Part shown: one piece after another, positions 19,920 through 61,388 of the stretch
Layout: every line of letters starts with the position of its first letter
Numbering within the stretch: the first letter of the stretch is position 1
The notes under the pieces: model-generated
The model's input: only the letters and a program-made list of their open reading frames with translations
The model's database searches: none
Told to the model about the DNA's origin: nothing
Assembly: GCF_007744075.1 (NCBI RefSeq)
Contig: NZ_CP036266.1
Span: forward strand, 4,697,748-4,761,747
Length of the DNA: 64,000 nucleotides
Direction of reading: 5' to 3'
Origin: Gimesia chilikensis
GTDB taxonomy: Bacteria; Planctomycetota; Planctomycetia; Planctomycetales; Planctomycetaceae
Translations under genes and position numbers: made by a program

Positions 19920-21992
19920 ATGTCTGTTCTGAACTCGAACCGGATTTCCAGATTACTCGCAACCGGATACGGTCTGCTTTTCGTATGTGGCGTCAGCCTC
20001 TCACTGATTACCGGCCCTGCCAGCCTGCGGGCCGAAACTCCTACCAAACCCGCCAGCGCCAAAGCCAAAACGGAAGTTGATACCGCCAGCGGCAAACGGA
20101 TGCTGGACGCGATCAAATACCTGGCCTCCGATGAACTTGAAGGGCGTGGGGTCGACACACAGGGCATCAACCTCGCTGCGGACTATATCGTCAAAGAATT
20201 CAAAGCAGCCGGCCTGGATGTGACAACGGTCGAAGAAAGTGCCTTTCAGAAATTCACCATCAACACCGGCAGCAAACTGGGACCGACCAACGAACTGCAG
20301 TTGACCGGACCGGATGGAAAAACAATTCCCCTCGCCTACGACAAAGATTTCCGTTCCTGCTCGTTCGGCGGCTCGGGAAAATTTGATGCGGAAATCGTCT
20401 TCTGCGGATACGGCATCGATGCCCAGGACGCGAAATACAATGACTATGCCAACGTCGATGTGAAAGACAAGGTCGTCATCATCATGCGTCGCACGCCTCA
20501 GCAGGGCGATAAAGAGAGCCCGTTCGCAGGGGCCCATGGAATTTCGCGTTACGCAGCTCTCCGCTACAAAGTGAGCACCGCATTCGGCAAAGGGGCCAAA
20601 GCGATCCTGTTCGTCAACGATTACTATTCTACGCAGGAACACAAAAAAGAGGCCCGCGAACTGGAACAGGACGCGATTGAAGAACTGATTCTCGCTACCG
20701 AAAAATGGGAAAAAGCAGCGAAGGATAAAGAGGAAACCAGTGCTGTTTCACTGAAGAAAGCTCTGCACGACGTGCAGCAGGCACGCAAGAATCTCAAAGA
20801 GGCGCATTTCGACCGGCTGATGGAATTTGGTTATGCCGGCAGCGGAGATGGCCGTTCGATTCCAATCGCTCACATCACGATCGAAAAGTGTAACGAACTC
20901 TTCAAGGACGCAGGGAAACCAACGCTGCAGGAACTGGAAGGTAAAATCGACGAAACTTTCAAGCCGGAAAGTTTCGCGTTACCCCAGTGGAAAGCCCGGG
21001 GCGAAATTTCGGTCGAACAGATTCGCACAGAAGTCAAAAACGTGATTGGCGTGCTGGAAGGCAAAGGGCCTCACGCTGATGAAACCATCGTCATCGGCGC
21101 CCACTATGATCACGTCGGTTATGGCGGTGAAGGTTCACTGGCCCCCGGTTCGACCGATGTCCACAACGGTGCTGACGACAATGCCTCGGGAACCGTGGCC
21201 CTGATCGAGCTGGCCCGCAAGCTGGCAGCCCGCAAGGAGCCCCTGCCTCGCCGCCTGGTCTTTATCGCCTTTACGGGTGAAGAACGGGGACTGATCGGTT
21301 CAGCACATTACGTCAAAAATCCCGTGTTTGACCTGAAGAACACCGTGGCGATGCTCAACATGGATATGGTCGGACGTTTAACTGACGACAAGCTGACCGT
21401 CTTCGGTACCGGCACCGCCCCCCGCTGGAAACAACTGGTAGAAAATACCGCGAAAGCCTATGATCTGAAACTCTCACTCAAGCCGGAAGGGTTCGGTCCC
21501 AGCGATCACAGCTCCTTTTACGGCAAGCAGATTCCGGTACTGCACCTCTTTACGGGAACTCACAGCGACTACCATCGCCCCTCCGATGACTGGGACAAAA
21601 TCAACATCCCGGGCATGGAACGGATCATCGGGTTTCTGGAAGAGATCGCTATCGCGACTGCAGAGAACCCCGACCGTCCTCAATATGTGAAGATCGAGCG
21701 TCCTGCCGCGACCATGCGTTCCGGTAACCGGCCTTACTTCGGCAGTATTCCGGACTTCGGTGGAGAAGGCCCCGGCTATCACATTTCGGGAGCTTCTCCC
21801 GGCAGTCCGGCTGACAAAGCGGGCCTCAAAGCCGGCGATGCCATCATCAAGATGGGCAAGACGAAAATCGATGGTCTGGATGACTTCGACCTGGCCCTGC
21901 GGATGTTTTCCGCCGGCGAGGAGGTAGAGGTCACTGTCCTGCGGGACGGAAAGCGAGTCAAACTGACCGTGAAGCTGGGTAAACCCAAATAA
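19920..21992 (+). CDS. Secreted M28-family metallopeptidase with PA and PDZ domains
   Basis: 690 residues; GAGG four bases before ATG 19920. Signal peptide about 1-38 (ATGYGLLFVCGVSLSLITGPASLRA). A protease-associated domain is inserted at about 130-300. The M28 core (about 365-570) has all five zinc ligands: GAHYDHVG (His), GADDNASG (Asp), the catalytic Glu and zinc-ligand Glu in FTGEERG, NMDMVGR (Asp) and SDYHRPSDDWDKI (His). A PDZ domain ends the protein (about 610-688; SPGSPADKAGLKAGDAIIKMG). M28 enzymes of this layout are aminopeptidases acting outside the cytoplasm. A helical, charged stretch at about 240-300 (EREL/KKEAREL type, with QDAIEELILATEKWEKAAKDK) is an unusual insertion inside the PA region. 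The gene stands alone, convergent with the DUF481 gene 11 bases downstream. Confidence 0.9.
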   Translation: MSVLNSNRISRLLATGYGLLFVCGVSLSLITGPASLRAETPTKPASAKAKTEVDTASGKRMLDAIKYLASDELEGRGVDTQGINLAADYIVKEFKAAGLDVTTVEESAFQKFTINTGSKLGPTNELQLTGPDGKTIPLAYDKDFRSCSFGGSGKFDAEIVFCGYGIDAQDAKYNDYANVDVKDKVVIIMRRTPQQGDKESPFAGAHGISRYAALRYKVSTAFGKGAKAILFVNDYYSTQEHKKEARELEQDAIEELILATEKWEKAAKDKEETSAVSLKKALHDVQQARKNLKEAHFDRLMEFGYAGSGDGRSIPIAHITIEKCNELFKDAGKPTLQELEGKIDETFKPESFALPQWKARGEISVEQIRTEVKNVIGVLEGKGPHADETIVIGAHYDHVGYGGEGSLAPGSTDVHNGADDNASGTVALIELARKLAARKEPLPRRLVFIAFTGEERGLIGSAHYVKNPVFDLKNTVAMLNMDMVGRLTDDKLTVFGTGTAPRWKQLVENTAKAYDLKLSLKPEGFGPSDHSSFYGKQIPVLHLFTGTHSDYHRPSDDWDKINIPGMERIIGFLEEIAIATAENPDRPQYVKIERPAATMRSGNRPYFGSIPDFGGEGPGYHISGASPGSPADKAGLKAGDAIIKMGKTKIDGLDDFDLALRMFSAGEEVEVTVLRDGKRVKLTVKLGKPK

Positions 21993-22003
21993 GCGTTATC
22001 TGT

Positions 22004-57529: not shown

Positions 57530-58279
57530 TTGAATCCCTGCCGCGTCGAGTTACTGGTCAGTGTGCGTAATTGTGAAGAAATCGCTGCTGCGCTGGCCGG
57601 GGGTTGTGATCTGCTCGACTTCAAAGAGCCGGAGAACGGCGCACTGGGAATGGTCGATGCTGAATCCCTGCAGGCGATCACGGTCTACTGCGAACGCCAC
57701 AGCATCACTCAACCCCTCAGTATGGCACTGGGCGAACTGGTTGAGTGGAGAGAGCGTAGCTCAATGACCCGCATCCCCTCGGCCATGAAGTACCTGAAAC
57801 TGGGACTCTCCGAAACCCGGGCACTGCCCGACTGGAAGTCCTGCTGGCGGGAGTTGACCGAACGGATCGAAACGGAACATCAACGGCAGTTCGACTGGAT
57901 CGCGGTCGCTTATGCAGACTGGGAACAGGCATCGGCAGCCTCTCCCCTCGAAGTCCTGTCGGCTGCGATTGAGAGCCGATGCGCTGGTCTGCTGATTGAC
58001 ACTTTCCACAAGCAGGGCCCCGGGTTAACGGACCTGCTCTCTCTGGAGCTGCTGGACGAGCTCATTCAACGGGCGCATCGACACGGGTTGAAGGTCGCGC
58101 TGGCAGGTTCTATTCGCCTGGGTGACCTGGAGACACTCTCTCCCCTGCAACCGGATATCGTTGGAATTCGGGGGGCAGCCTGTACGAGAAATCGACGTAC
58201 CAGTTCGATCGAGTCGTCCGCAGTGCGCGAATTCAGAATGCAGCTGGAAGAACAGTTCCACTGTCATCCCTGGGGATGA
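57530..58279 (+). CDS. mfnB: (5-formylfuran-3-yl)methyl phosphate synthase MfnB-like
   Basis: 249 residues from TTG 57530 (AGGAAGG upstream). The N-terminal strand-loop is VELLVSVRNCEEIAAALAGGCDLLDFKEPENGALGM, matching the archaeal MfnB pattern, with the catalytic Lys in DFKEPENGALG (Lys32). The region LLIDTFHKQGPGLTDLL matches the second active-site strand (IDT.x.K). A TIM-barrel end follows (LKVALAGSIRLGDLETLSPLQPDIVGIRGAACTRNRRTSSI). The enzyme makes the furan precursor of methanofuran from glyceraldehyde 3-phosphate. Planctomycetes are known to carry methanofuran/H4MPT-type C1 genes, so this fits (inference). No other methanofuran gene is adjacent. The gene is convergent with the pseudo-protease gene, with ten bases between stops. 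Confidence 0.8.
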   Translation: MNPCRVELLVSVRNCEEIAAALAGGCDLLDFKEPENGALGMVDAESLQAITVYCERHSITQPLSMALGELVEWRERSSMTRIPSAMKYLKLGLSETRALPDWKSCWRELTERIETEHQRQFDWIAVAYADWEQASAASPLEVLSAAIESRCAGLLIDTFHKQGPGLTDLLSLELLDELIQRAHRHGLKVALAGSIRLGDLETLSPLQPDIVGIRGAACTRNRRTSSIESSAVREFRMQLEEQFHCHPWG

Positions 58280-58288
58280 ACGACGGTC

Positions 58289-59377
58289 TCAGGAAGCACT
58301 ACCGGCAGCGACGGTCTGTTCCTTATGATCCTTCTGGGGATTGTAAGGAGCATACTCTTTGAGCTTGAGTTTCTGAATCATGGGGATCACCTGATCGGCG
58401 GGAATCGCGAAGGACTTGGTTCTGCCAGCCCGGGCGATGTTCAAGCCAATGGCCTTCCCCTGCAGGTCAACAATGACGCCGCCACAGTCTTCGGGGCGAA
58501 GTACGGTATCGTGCTGCAGGACTTCAGAGAAACCGGTTTTACGGCGACTCAAGGCGCCTCCCATTTTCTTCTGCATTTCCCGCAGGCGATCGTAGATCAG
58601 CATCTGGGGATCGGTGAGGACCACCACTGCGTTGATTTCTTCTTCATCTCTCAGTAACCGGACCTGGACACGATCGCCGGGTAGAAACTTTCGGATGAAC
58701 CGCGAGAGTGAACTGGCACTGTCGATGTTTTCGCCGGCCACATTCAGAATCACATCGCCTGGTTTCAGGCCCGCTTCTTCGGCACCACTTTCGCGCATCA
58801 CCTGTTTGACCAGGGCGCCTCCGTTGGCATCATCGATCTGCACGCCCAGAACTCCCGGGGCGGGTTTGATATCGCGGCGTGTCACGCTGAGTACGCCGAC
58901 ACTCACGGGAGACATGCTCAGGCCGGGAGTGACCAGCCACTGACCGACTTTGGGGTCAGTTACTGACTGCCATTGAACTGTAGGCAGATTCCGGGCATCA
59001 ATTTTGAGCAGCGCCAGATCGAGCTTACCGTCGACGCCGATGATTTCGGCTTCGTAGCGTTCGGCGGTTGTGAGTTCGCAGGTCACTTTTCCTTCCAGCT
59101 GGCTGGCTTTGGTCAGGATCCAGCCATCAGATTCCACGATGGCTCCCAGTGAGGCCTCTCTGCCATTCACACGGACGCGGACCGTCCAGGAACGGGGAGT
59201 CGAAACGACAGACCGGAACGCGCGACGCATTTGAGAACCGCTGGTCAGCTGGCTCGGCTGCAGTTGATCGAAAGCGGAGGCACTGTCTGTCAGCCACCCA
59301 GCGCAGGTGGTGATGATTAAAGTCAGAGCGAACAGCCGGACTATCTGCGGAATGCGGTTTTTATGATCCTGGTTCAA
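58289..59377 (-). CDS. Pseudo-protease: trypsin-like fold with PDZ domain nested inside and altered triad
   Basis: 362 residues with a signal peptide (RLFALTLIITTCAGWLTDSASA, about 14-35). Residues about 55-170 form the first half of an HtrA-like trypsin fold. Where the catalytic His stands, the sequence is GWILTKASQLEG, so Ser92 replaces His; the Asp is kept (KLDLALLKID, Asp120). At about 174-255 a PDZ domain follows (GALVKQVMRESGAEEAGLKPGDVILNVAGENI). Only after it, at about 290-335, comes the Ser-loop half: RPEDCGGVIVDLQGKAIGLNIARAG...FAIPADQV, with Cys298 in place of the nucleophile Ser. The PDZ is therefore inserted within the fold and the triad is broken at two positions. It lies 74 bases downstream of the intact HtrA gene on the same strand, probably in one operon. 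It may be a regulator or substrate adaptor (inference). Confidence 0.8.
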   Translation of the reverse strand: MNQDHKNRIPQIVRLFALTLIITTCAGWLTDSASAFDQLQPSQLTSGSQMRRAFRSVVSTPRSWTVRVRVNGREASLGAIVESDGWILTKASQLEGKVTCELTTAERYEAEIIGVDGKLDLALLKIDARNLPTVQWQSVTDPKVGQWLVTPGLSMSPVSVGVLSVTRRDIKPAPGVLGVQIDDANGGALVKQVMRESGAEEAGLKPGDVILNVAGENIDSASSLSRFIRKFLPGDRVQVRLLRDEEEINAVVVLTDPQMLIYDRLREMQKKMGGALSRRKTGFSEVLQHDTVLRPEDCGGVIVDLQGKAIGLNIARAGRTKSFAIPADQVIPMIQKLKLKEYAPYNPQKDHKEQTVAAGSAS

Positions 59378-59451
59378 GAGCTTCTCCTCACATCACTTTA
59401 TTATCAGATCCGAACTACGAAGCAGTCATCCAGATCGCGATCAAGTTTGTA

Positions 59452-60531
59452 TTAATCCCGGGCGGCGAGTTGAACTTCAAACGACATGCTTTTGCCGTCA
59501 CGCGTCAGTTGAACCTGCACCGTCTGCCCCGGTTTGTATTGTTGAACGACTTCCGCCAGTTGTTCGATGCCGGTAATCTTCTCATCGTTCAGCTGGTAAA
59601 TAATGTCGTTCTCTTTCAGGCCGGCGATTTCTGCGGGAAATCCGCGGGTGACGCCGGTCACTTTACATCCTTGATCTGTCGTTTCGCCATTGACGCCGAG
59701 GACGGCATTCTGGCCGAGAGGCTTCGCCCCCCACATATCGCCGGAAACAAGTTTTTCCCAGTCGTCCTGAAATGCGGAGACGGGGATATGAAAATTCCAG
59801 CTGGTAGAGGGACCGATGCGGCTGTGAATGCCAACCACCTCTCCCTGCATATTATATAACGGGCCACCTGAGTCTCCGCCGATCAGCGTGCAATCAGTCT
59901 GGAGCAGATGTTTTTTCCGGGTCACGACCCGTCCCAGCCGTACGACAGGGGGACGCCCTGCCTGATAACCGTTCGGGTGTCCGGTGGCCATCACCCACTC
60001 ACCGGTTTTGATCTGGGAGATGTCTCCCATTTTGGCGGCTGTGAGTTTGCTGATATCGACTTCGTCATCTTCAATCAGTTTCACCAGTCCGGCATCGAGA
60101 CCGCGGTTCAGGCCCATGGTACGGCCTTTCAACGTGCGGCCATCGTGTAGGATGATGGTGGCATCTTTCTGAGCGAGTCCGATGACATGTGCGGCTGTGA
60201 GGATGTAGCCGGCTTTGTTATCAATGATTACCCCACTCCCCTGAGCATCGCCGACCCGTACGGAGACCGTACTGTGAATCGATTTTTCTGTCAGGGAAGT
60301 GACCTGCCGTTCAATCTCCTGGAGATCCTCCAGGGAATCGGGAACGGTCTTGAAAAAGACTTCGGAAAGTTTCGCTGGGGCGACAGGGGTAACAACGGGT
60401 TTACGTACCTCAACTTCCTGAGCGTTGGCGGGCGCCAGAGAAAGCAGGAAAAGGGCCATTGCACTGACGAGAGTGCGTTGCACCAAATCACCGGTTGTGG
60501 CTCTGAAGAAGATCAAGGGGCTCAAACTCAT
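59452..60531 (-). CDS. HtrA/DegQ-type serine protease with PDZ domain
   Basis: 359 residues. Signal peptide about 20-38 (LVSAMALFLLSLAPANAQ). The trypsin-like domain has an intact triad: His115 (LTAAHVIG), Asp146 (GLDAGLVKL) and Ser221 (GGDSGGPLYN). One PDZ domain (about 265-350; VTGVTRGFPAEIAGLKENDIIYQLNDEKI) ends the protein. It would act as a protease/chaperone in the periplasm, cutting misfolded exported proteins. GAGG lies just before ATG 60531. The pseudo-protease gene follows 74 bases downstream, so the two may form a pair in which the second partner regulates or extends the first (inference). Confidence 0.9.
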   Translation of the reverse strand: MSLSPLIFFRATTGDLVQRTLVSAMALFLLSLAPANAQEVEVRKPVVTPVAPAKLSEVFFKTVPDSLEDLQEIERQVTSLTEKSIHSTVSVRVGDAQGSGVIIDNKAGYILTAAHVIGLAQKDATIILHDGRTLKGRTMGLNRGLDAGLVKLIEDDEVDISKLTAAKMGDISQIKTGEWVMATGHPNGYQAGRPPVVRLGRVVTRKKHLLQTDCTLIGGDSGGPLYNMQGEVVGIHSRIGPSTSWNFHIPVSAFQDDWEKLVSGDMWGAKPLGQNAVLGVNGETTDQGCKVTGVTRGFPAEIAGLKENDIIYQLNDEKITGIEQLAEVVQQYKPGQTVQVQLTRDGKSMSFEVQLAARD

Positions 60532-60839
60532 ACCTCGTCAGCAGGAAACTTTGCGGGATGTATTTCTCAGGAAAGAAATACTGCATATAGAATACGCGAT
60601 GTACATGAGCATTTTCAAGAAAAAACAGGAAATTCCGCATGGATGGGCGTTTTTCTAAATTCCTTAAAAAAGGTGACTTGTGTCGTGTTTAGGGGTTAAG
60701 AAAGATTTTGAGAAATCCATAACTGGACTTTCTCAATCCTTATGAAATGGCCTTGAAATCGCTATGATCCGTATGATTGTTCCCCGCAAGAAGCGGTACA
60801 GATACGCCCTTTTTCACTCAGAGAGAGAAGTCACACCTC
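60532..60839. other. 308-base divergent intergenic region with a stem before rfbC
   Basis: No gene is seen. A stem TTGAGAAATCCA (60708-60719) / TGGACTTTCTCAA (60724-60736) forms with one bulged base and no T-run. It may be a leader structure or operator for the rfbC operon. TTGAAA at 60753 and TATGAT at 60772 are too close (13 bases) to be a good promoter pair. Confidence 0.4.
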
Positions 60840-61388
60840 ATGGAAGTAGAACAGACCGGTTTTCCCGGGTTACTGGTGATCACCCCCCGGGTCTTTTCTG
60901 ACGAACGTGGTTTTTTCAAAGAAACGTACCAGGAGGAGCGGTACAAGGAAGCTGGCGTCGATGCCTCTTTTGTACAGGATAATGCATCCCGCTCCACTGC
61001 CGGCATTCTCAGGGGACTGCATTACCAGATTCAGCACCCCCAGGCCAAACTGGTGCATGTCATGGAAGGGGAAATTCTGGACGTCTGTGTTGACCTGCGG
61101 AAGAATTCCCCCACGTTCGGCCAGTCCTACTCCATCCGCCTGACGGGCGAGAACCACAAGCAACTCTATGTGCCCCCGGGTTTTGCCCACGGTTTTTATG
61201 TCATGAGCCCCCAGGTTGATTTTGTGTATAAGTGTGGCGATTATTATTACCCCGAACACGACCGGACTCTGCTCTGGAACGATCCCGATCTGGGAATTGA
61301 CTGGCCGCTCTCAGGCGAGCCACTGCTCTCGGAGAAAGACCGTCGAGGGCTGCCGCTGAAAGAATGTGAAGTTTTCGAATCGCTATGA
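60840..61388 (+). CDS. rfbC: dTDP-4-dehydrorhamnose 3,5-epimerase
   Basis: 182 residues from ATG 60840, the normal length; the TTG at 60777 would add residues with no homology. The cupin fold begins FPGLLVITPRVFSDERGFFKETYQEERYKEAGV and carries the catalytic His in GILRGLHYQIQHPQAKLVHVMEGEILDVCVDLR. VPPGFAHGFYVMS and the C-terminal DIDWPLSGEPLLSEKDRRG (here GIDWPLSGEPLLSEKD) complete the pattern. It epimerises dTDP-4-keto-6-deoxyglucose in dTDP-L-rhamnose synthesis. rfbA, B and D are not adjacent. Its stop overlaps the next start (ATGA, 61385-61388), so it is coupled to pdxA. Confidence 0.93.
   Translation: MEVEQTGFPGLLVITPRVFSDERGFFKETYQEERYKEAGVDASFVQDNASRSTAGILRGLHYQIQHPQAKLVHVMEGEILDVCVDLRKNSPTFGQSYSIRLTGENHKQLYVPPGFAHGFYVMSPQVDFVYKCGDYYYPEHDRTLLWNDPDLGIDWPLSGEPLLSEKDRRGLPLKECEVFESL

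Follow-up and report, generated by a model that had tools for sequence, protein, structure and literature searches.

How is a protein to be understood in which the two halves of an HtrA-type protease fold lie on either side of a PDZ domain, and which is encoded directly downstream of an intact HtrA? Such a pair of genes is found in the planctomycete Gimesia chilikensis (genome size 8.29 Mb), on the minus strand of the 64-kb window, i.e., the whole stretch of DNA that was analyzed. A central issue in HtrA proteases is the communication from the PDZ domain via loop L3 to the active site, and in the downstream protein, referred to here as pseudo-HtrA, evolution has wired a PDZ domain directly into L3, removed catalysis and kept the resulting unit attached to a working HtrA. 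The features of the locus, with positions given for the window, are the following:

59452-60531, minus strand: HtrA, the upstream partner; ORF of 359 aa with a protease part followed by a C-terminal PDZ domain, predicted to be exported
59378-59451, minus strand: intergenic gap of 74 bases with a GAGGAGA ribosome-binding-like site and without a terminator-like site
58289-59377, minus strand: pseudo-HtrA with nested PDZ domain; ORF of 362 aa with a TTG start
Residues 1-35 of the pseudo-HtrA, minus strand: putative signal peptide, read by eye
58868-59242, minus strand: first part of the pseudo-protease, residues 46-170, with Lys90, Ser92 and Asp120
59102-59110, minus strand: codons of Lys90-Ala91-Ser92, the invariant KxS motif at the site of the catalytic His
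58610-58861, minus strand: nested PDZ domain, residues 173-256, at the position of HtrA loop L3
58532-58609, minus strand: residues 257-282, a conserved helical linker plus the GGALSRRKTG segment, which connect the PDZ domain with the second part
58352-58531, minus strand: second part of the pseudo-protease, residues 283-342, with QHD, Cys298 and NIARAGR
58484-58486, minus strand: codon of Cys298, at the position of the catalytic Ser

The Gene Pair

The original prediction placed an HtrA with an intact triad 74 bases away from the pseudo-HtrA, and both the ORFs and the residues His115, Asp146 and Ser221, the latter within GDSGGP, agree with this. Pfam searches with the upstream protein yielded Trypsin_2 over its full profile at residues 98-235 and PDZ_2 at residues 277-355. 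With its complete triad and its C-terminal PDZ domain this protein is a member of the HtrA/Deg proteases, scoring 159.9 bits against the NCBIfam model degP_htrA_DO (TIGR02037) with its cut-off of 416. The partner HtrAs of the family are likewise found far below this DegP cut-off; they carry GDSGGP around the catalytic Ser, and the other HtrAs of the same genomes carry GNSGGP. As judged from such sequence features, the partner HtrAs form a distinct HtrA subgroup.

The TTG start of the pseudo-HtrA is plausible, since GAGGAGA is located 5 bases 5′ of it. A scan of the gap on the minus strand for terminator-like sites yielded none, and the flanking annotated-looking genes (57530-58279 and 60777-61388) are located on the plus strand, so that HtrA and pseudo-HtrA look like a two-gene unit. 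Apparent signal peptides ending in A-x-A, recognized by eye and not by a predictor, are present on both proteins, which are thus probably both exported.

Two further loci were encountered besides this pair. The genome of G. chilikensis contains another back-to-back pair of degenerate HtrA-like ORFs (C1:1361563-1364883), of ordinary domain order, one of 671 aa with F-M-Y at the triad positions and two PDZ domains after the protease part, the other of 370 aa with S-D-A. Within the window, a long ORF ends in a C-terminal PDZ domain (about 21801-21998, plus strand) that gave a weak match to the query.

One Protease Domain Interrupted by a PDZ Domain

In the pseudo-HtrA, Pfam finds Trypsin_2 at residues 78-153, covering only positions 3-88 of the 144 positions of the profile, and subsequently PDZ_2 at residues 175-252. 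HtrA models match the protein in three pieces, with the Ser-loop part located after the PDZ domain, and HtrA chains from the PDB align with this Ser-loop part at residues 283-341. Following in silico excision of the PDZ domain (removal of residues 172-278), the Trypsin_2 match was unbroken, comprising profile positions 3-144 of 144 at 50.7 bits as compared to 43.1 bits for the uncut protein, and the shortened sequence could be aligned continuously with human HTRA1 and with a DegP-like chain.

An AlphaFold2 model calculated with 54 homologues (mean pLDDT 89.6, pTM 0.84) shows protease strands at residues 30-133, the PDZ domain at 144-218, a helix at 228-238 and further strands at 251-291, in the numbering of the mature protein, to which 35 has to be added for full-length residues. 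An ordinary order of protease and then PDZ domain is not present in this model of the 362-residue protein. When compared to known structures by VIA-align, DegS without its PDZ domain (2qf0_D) superimposes on residues 17-309 of the model over 177 residues at 2.2 Å with a Z-score of 24.1, and the best HtrA chains reach a Z-score of 25. Foldseek gave low TM-scores (about 0.3), presumably a consequence of its sequential alignment mixing the two protease halves, and VIA-align was preferred for the comparison.

Taken together, the Pfam matches, the excision, the AlphaFold2 model and the VIA-align superpositions point to a single protease domain that is completed across an inserted PDZ domain. The predicted structure thereby confirms that the pseudo-HtrA is one trypsin-like HtrA protease domain interrupted by a PDZ domain, as had been claimed initially from the sequence. 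The order of first half, PDZ domain and second half was found in 76 out of 76 homologous proteins, and the linker residues 257-278 are identical across the five Gimesia relatives compared. With regard to family membership, the pseudo-HtrA has the two-barrel trypsin-like domain of the HtrA type (S1C). Its 123.7 bits in three pieces are below the TIGR02037 cut-off of 416, the His-Asp-Ser triad of HtrA/Deg (S1C) is missing, and so is the C-terminal PDZ domain, which is nested instead in all 76 proteins. Because of its triad and its domain order, the pseudo-HtrA, although a homologue with an HtrA fold, is not an HtrA protease as far as catalysis is concerned.

The Degenerate Active Site

At the triad positions, the pseudo-HtrA contains Ser92 in place of the catalytic His, the retained Asp120, and Cys298 in place of the catalytic Ser. 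The replacement of His by Ser92, noted already in the original prediction, recurs in each of the 76 homologous proteins within a TK[A]S motif, and Lys90, Ser92 and Asp120 are invariant among them; for Lys90 and Ser92 this includes one row (L077) that was read by eye as TKLS. An apparent His in L077 was traced to the first half of the active HtrA fused to its nested unit. The position of the catalytic Ser is occupied by Cys in 58 of the 76 proteins and otherwise by Met, Gln, Ile, Val, Thr or Phe, the Phe stemming from one row that the alignment had left as a gap, and Ser does not occur. Accordingly, not one homologue keeps the catalytic His or Ser. Further residues are also nearly constant, namely Arg316 and Arg319 (74/76 each) and His289 (70/76), and the pattern KxS…NIARxxR reads as a conserved new signature as opposed to random decay. 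That the pseudo-HtrA is catalytically inactive is well supported by the residues found at these positions. The initial assumption that Cys298 serves as the nucleophile can be followed only in part: a Cys is indeed present at the Ser position, however, a nucleophilic role is unlikely, as the residue is replaced in about one quarter of the homologues and the His is gone.

For the pseudo-HtrA, dN/dS values of about 0.03-0.09 were obtained in comparisons with relatives that were restricted to unsaturated synonymous sites, and the values of the partner HtrA are about the same, indicating that the pseudo-HtrA is under purifying selection. This low dN/dS and the nested order in 76 homologues rule out a product of chance or an artefact of the gene model, and also a decaying pseudogene.

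Insertion at Loop L3

In the continuous alignment, the PDZ domain is inserted between the HTRA1 segments VSTTQR and YIQTD. Loop L3 of HTRA1 comprises Ser298-Leu307, and within the trimer its Arg302 touches loop LD of the adjacent monomer (PMC5666011). It follows from the location of the cut that the PDZ domain takes the place of L3, for which, as far as can be judged from the alignment, it stands in. Arg168 of the pseudo-HtrA aligns with HTRA1 Arg302, a position at which 41 of 54 homologues have an Arg. Among these 54 homologues, the LGV loop of the nested PDZ domain is conserved (Leu in 50/54, Gly in 54/54, Val or Ile in 51/54). As described in the literature, L3 in DegP and DegQ passes the signal of PDZ1 on to LD and L1 (PMC3575494, PMC3640471).

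Distribution and Pairing in Planctomycetota

When 392 genomes of the phylum were searched with profile A1, the nested protein was identified in 71 of them (our own count at E < 1e-35); weaker A1 matches (E > 1e-27) were mostly lone PDZ domains. At 34 of the 71 loci an HtrA is encoded directly upstream on the same strand, at 29 it is fused N-terminally within one ORF, and at eight neither is the case. For seven of the eight unpaired loci, none of them at a contig end, an orthologue of the partner HtrA is present elsewhere in the genome (E 2e-75 to 1e-65), the other HtrAs of these seven genomes matching at 6e-29 or weaker. The eighth is located at a contig end, and an HtrA-like match (4e-18) is found on another contig. 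In the opposite direction, a partner orthologue at E ≤ 1e-38 is present in 47 genomes, every one of which also encodes the nested protein, cut-offs for this co-occurrence having been set after the score gap was visible, and genomes of the same family that lack either the nested protein or the partner HtrA also lack the other. The paired and fused partner HtrAs keep His-Asp-Ser, the only exceptions being other paralogues and the extra N-terminal domain of a three-domain protein.

Outside of Gimesia, the pair is conserved and its neighbors are not, except for one locus sharing two more genes. Within the family, several genomes have the genes of the nested protein and the HtrA apart, which implies that a tight co-translation of the two is not required. 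Beyond the phylum, a plasmid search with the pseudo-HtrA yielded only partial HtrA-like matches, none of which covered 80%, and a contig scan gave matches only in Gimesia or other planctomycete relatives. All in all, it is well supported by these genomic distributions that the pseudo-HtrA is tied to an HtrA with intact triad. The original suggestion that the two proteins may act together gains in strength from the conserved adjacency, the fusion in many lineages and the strict co-occurrence.

Fused forms occur on several branches of a quick, weakly resolved tree, which requires at least six changes between fused and split states, a number depending on weakly supported branches; the starred branches alone are compatible with a single origin of the fusion. 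Some fusions consist of protease and nested unit without a PDZ domain in between, others of protease, PDZ domain and nested unit, and still others have a pair of PDZ domains behind the HtrA and another pair within the pseudo unit. To the latter belong five proteins of about 965-1007 aa (L074, L075, L076, L079 and L082, group f27), in which two PDZ domains follow the active HtrA part and two are nested. The nested domains of such two-PDZ fusions are more alike to each other than to the PDZ domains of the attached HtrA, and therefore the number of PDZ domains seems to have grown separately in the pseudo unit and the HtrA.

Additional variants were observed. Two proteins of one genome (G180), L080 and L081, with 1146 and 1085 aa, respectively, have four PDZ domains nested in one pseudo-protease fold. 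L070 (G291) and L083 (G087), both of about 820-840 aa, contain three protease-like units per chain, namely an extra N-terminal trypsin-like part, a unit with His-Asp-Ser and a pseudo unit with nested PDZ domain; in the extra N-terminal part of L070 the triad is lost.

Possible Function of the Pseudo-HtrA

Pairing, fusion and the lost catalysis argue for a subunit that regulates the partner HtrA or serves it as an adaptor. The reading that we prefer, giving it somewhat better than even credence, is that of a dedicated dead HtrA subunit by which the adjacent HtrA is controlled, the PDZ domain in L3 acting as the sensor. The dead subunit would dock on the active HtrA in a mixed oligomer or, in the fused forms, in an intramolecular equivalent thereof, and would control it or supply substrates to it. 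The location of the PDZ domain in L3 leads to the idea that a ligand of this domain could shift L3 directly and subsequently the activation domain of the adjacent active subunit, whose active site might thus be switched on or off without any proteolysis by the dead subunit. The sensor role is suggested by analogy to DegS and DegP, and we infer the physical complex, the sensing of a ligand and the direction of the effect. A structure prediction of one natural fusion (L022), based on 74 rows, reached a pLDDT of 94.5 and a pTM of only 0.76, scores that do not settle the docking. As the pair is kept together, and often fused, across the phylum, the dead twin might represent a built-in regulator of the live HtrA. 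The more extensive proposal of a phylum-wide two-component HtrA system, in which an active HtrA and an obligate pseudo-subunit with a PDZ domain grafted into L3 would form a mixed oligomer with the dead subunit as allosteric switch, is put forward tentatively, as a conceivable scenario that falls somewhat short of being probable.

It appears rather unlikely that the pseudo-HtrA is instead a substrate adaptor or chaperone, whose PDZ domain and former active-site groove would bind unfolded or tagged envelope proteins and pass them to the HtrA without allostery. Pairing and fusion fit such a role equally well, the conservation of the LGV loop is compatible with it, and the increase to two or four PDZ domains in some homologues fits a greater binding capacity; however, an adaptor leaves unexplained that the PDZ domain moved into L3 and never back to the C-terminus, and why the KxS…NIARxxR signature is nearly fixed. 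The same complex might also act with the opposite sign, as a stoichiometric inhibitor from which the partner HtrA would be freed only once a ligand occupies the PDZ domain, which we consider unlikely. The pairing evidence applies here as well, and the PDZ domain of DegS is reportedly inhibitory until a ligand is bound, according to work of the Sauer laboratory. Sequence data do not separate this version from an activator; the studied analogue MamO promotes the activity of MamE (PMC4794232). A stand-alone binding or sensing protein of the envelope, linked to the HtrA merely for historical reasons (tandem duplication, then domain shuffling), is quite improbable. It would account for the eight of 71 loci without an adjoining HtrA, and a pocket binding an anion or a ligand could be built from the basic and Ser residues that are conserved where the active site used to be, yet it is at odds with fused forms on several branches, with an adjacency that is kept while all other neighbors change and with co-occurrence even where the genes are apart. 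Finally, an active cysteine protease of chymotrypsin fold using Cys298 is highly improbable, since, despite the prevalence of Cys at the nucleophile position and the universal Asp120, the His is Ser in every homologue and the Cys is exchanged elsewhere with the remaining signature unchanged.

If it is true that a dead unit switches a live one, the pair would be a case in which sensor and enzyme have been taken apart by nature. Planctomycete envelope quality control would also gain a component that is missed by ordinary annotation, which splits it into two domain matches.

Comparison With Known Systems

The nested PDZ domain had been described in the original prediction as an unfamiliar domain order for HtrA, and the literature searched on planctomycete and Gimesia HtrA, on HtrA pseudoproteases and on PDZ insertion into L3 contained no description of such an architecture. 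The words “nested” and “inserted” are absent from the main text of a survey of 7,852 microbial PDZ proteins (PMC6411480). Already known are HtrA-type pseudoproteases, such as MamO, and HtrA pairs; what is new, as far as the literature searched is concerned, is a PDZ domain nested at L3 of the HtrA fold that, along with an intact partner HtrA, is fixed in a large part of a phylum.

The magnetosome pseudoprotease MamO is required for proteolysis by MamE, and its own triad is dispensable (PMC4794232), which provides a functional precedent for the arrangement of a pseudoprotease and an HtrA. In both cases an inactive HtrA-like protein stands beside an active HtrA, although for the pseudo-HtrA only pairing and fusion point to a functional link. 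As described, MamO differs from the pseudo-HtrA in having a Thr in its triad, no nested PDZ domain, a C-terminal TauE transporter domain and metal binding via two His (PMC4794232), and the NCBIfam MamO model matches the pseudo-HtrA only weakly (32.4 bits vs. a cut-off of 800), placing it outside the MamO family.

DegP, DegQ, DegS and HTRA1 (MEROPS S1C) have the protease fold and the type of PDZ domain in common with the pseudo-HtrA, as reflected in VIA-align Z-scores of about 24-25. Their PDZ domains are, however, C-terminal, whereas that of the pseudo-HtrA replaces L3, and the pseudo-HtrA has lost the His and Ser of the triad. In yeast Ynm3/Nma111, a single polypeptide combines an active HtrA repeat with a degenerate one behind it, resembling the fused planctomycete forms, except that its degenerate repeat is of ordinary domain order, unlike the nested planctomycete unit. 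PDZ domains that gate a protease domain, being placed either within it or in front of it, are found in site-2 proteases (RseP) and in S41 C-terminal processing proteases (CtpB), whose catalytic folds, in contrast to that of the pseudo-HtrA, are not trypsin-like and are unrelated to it.
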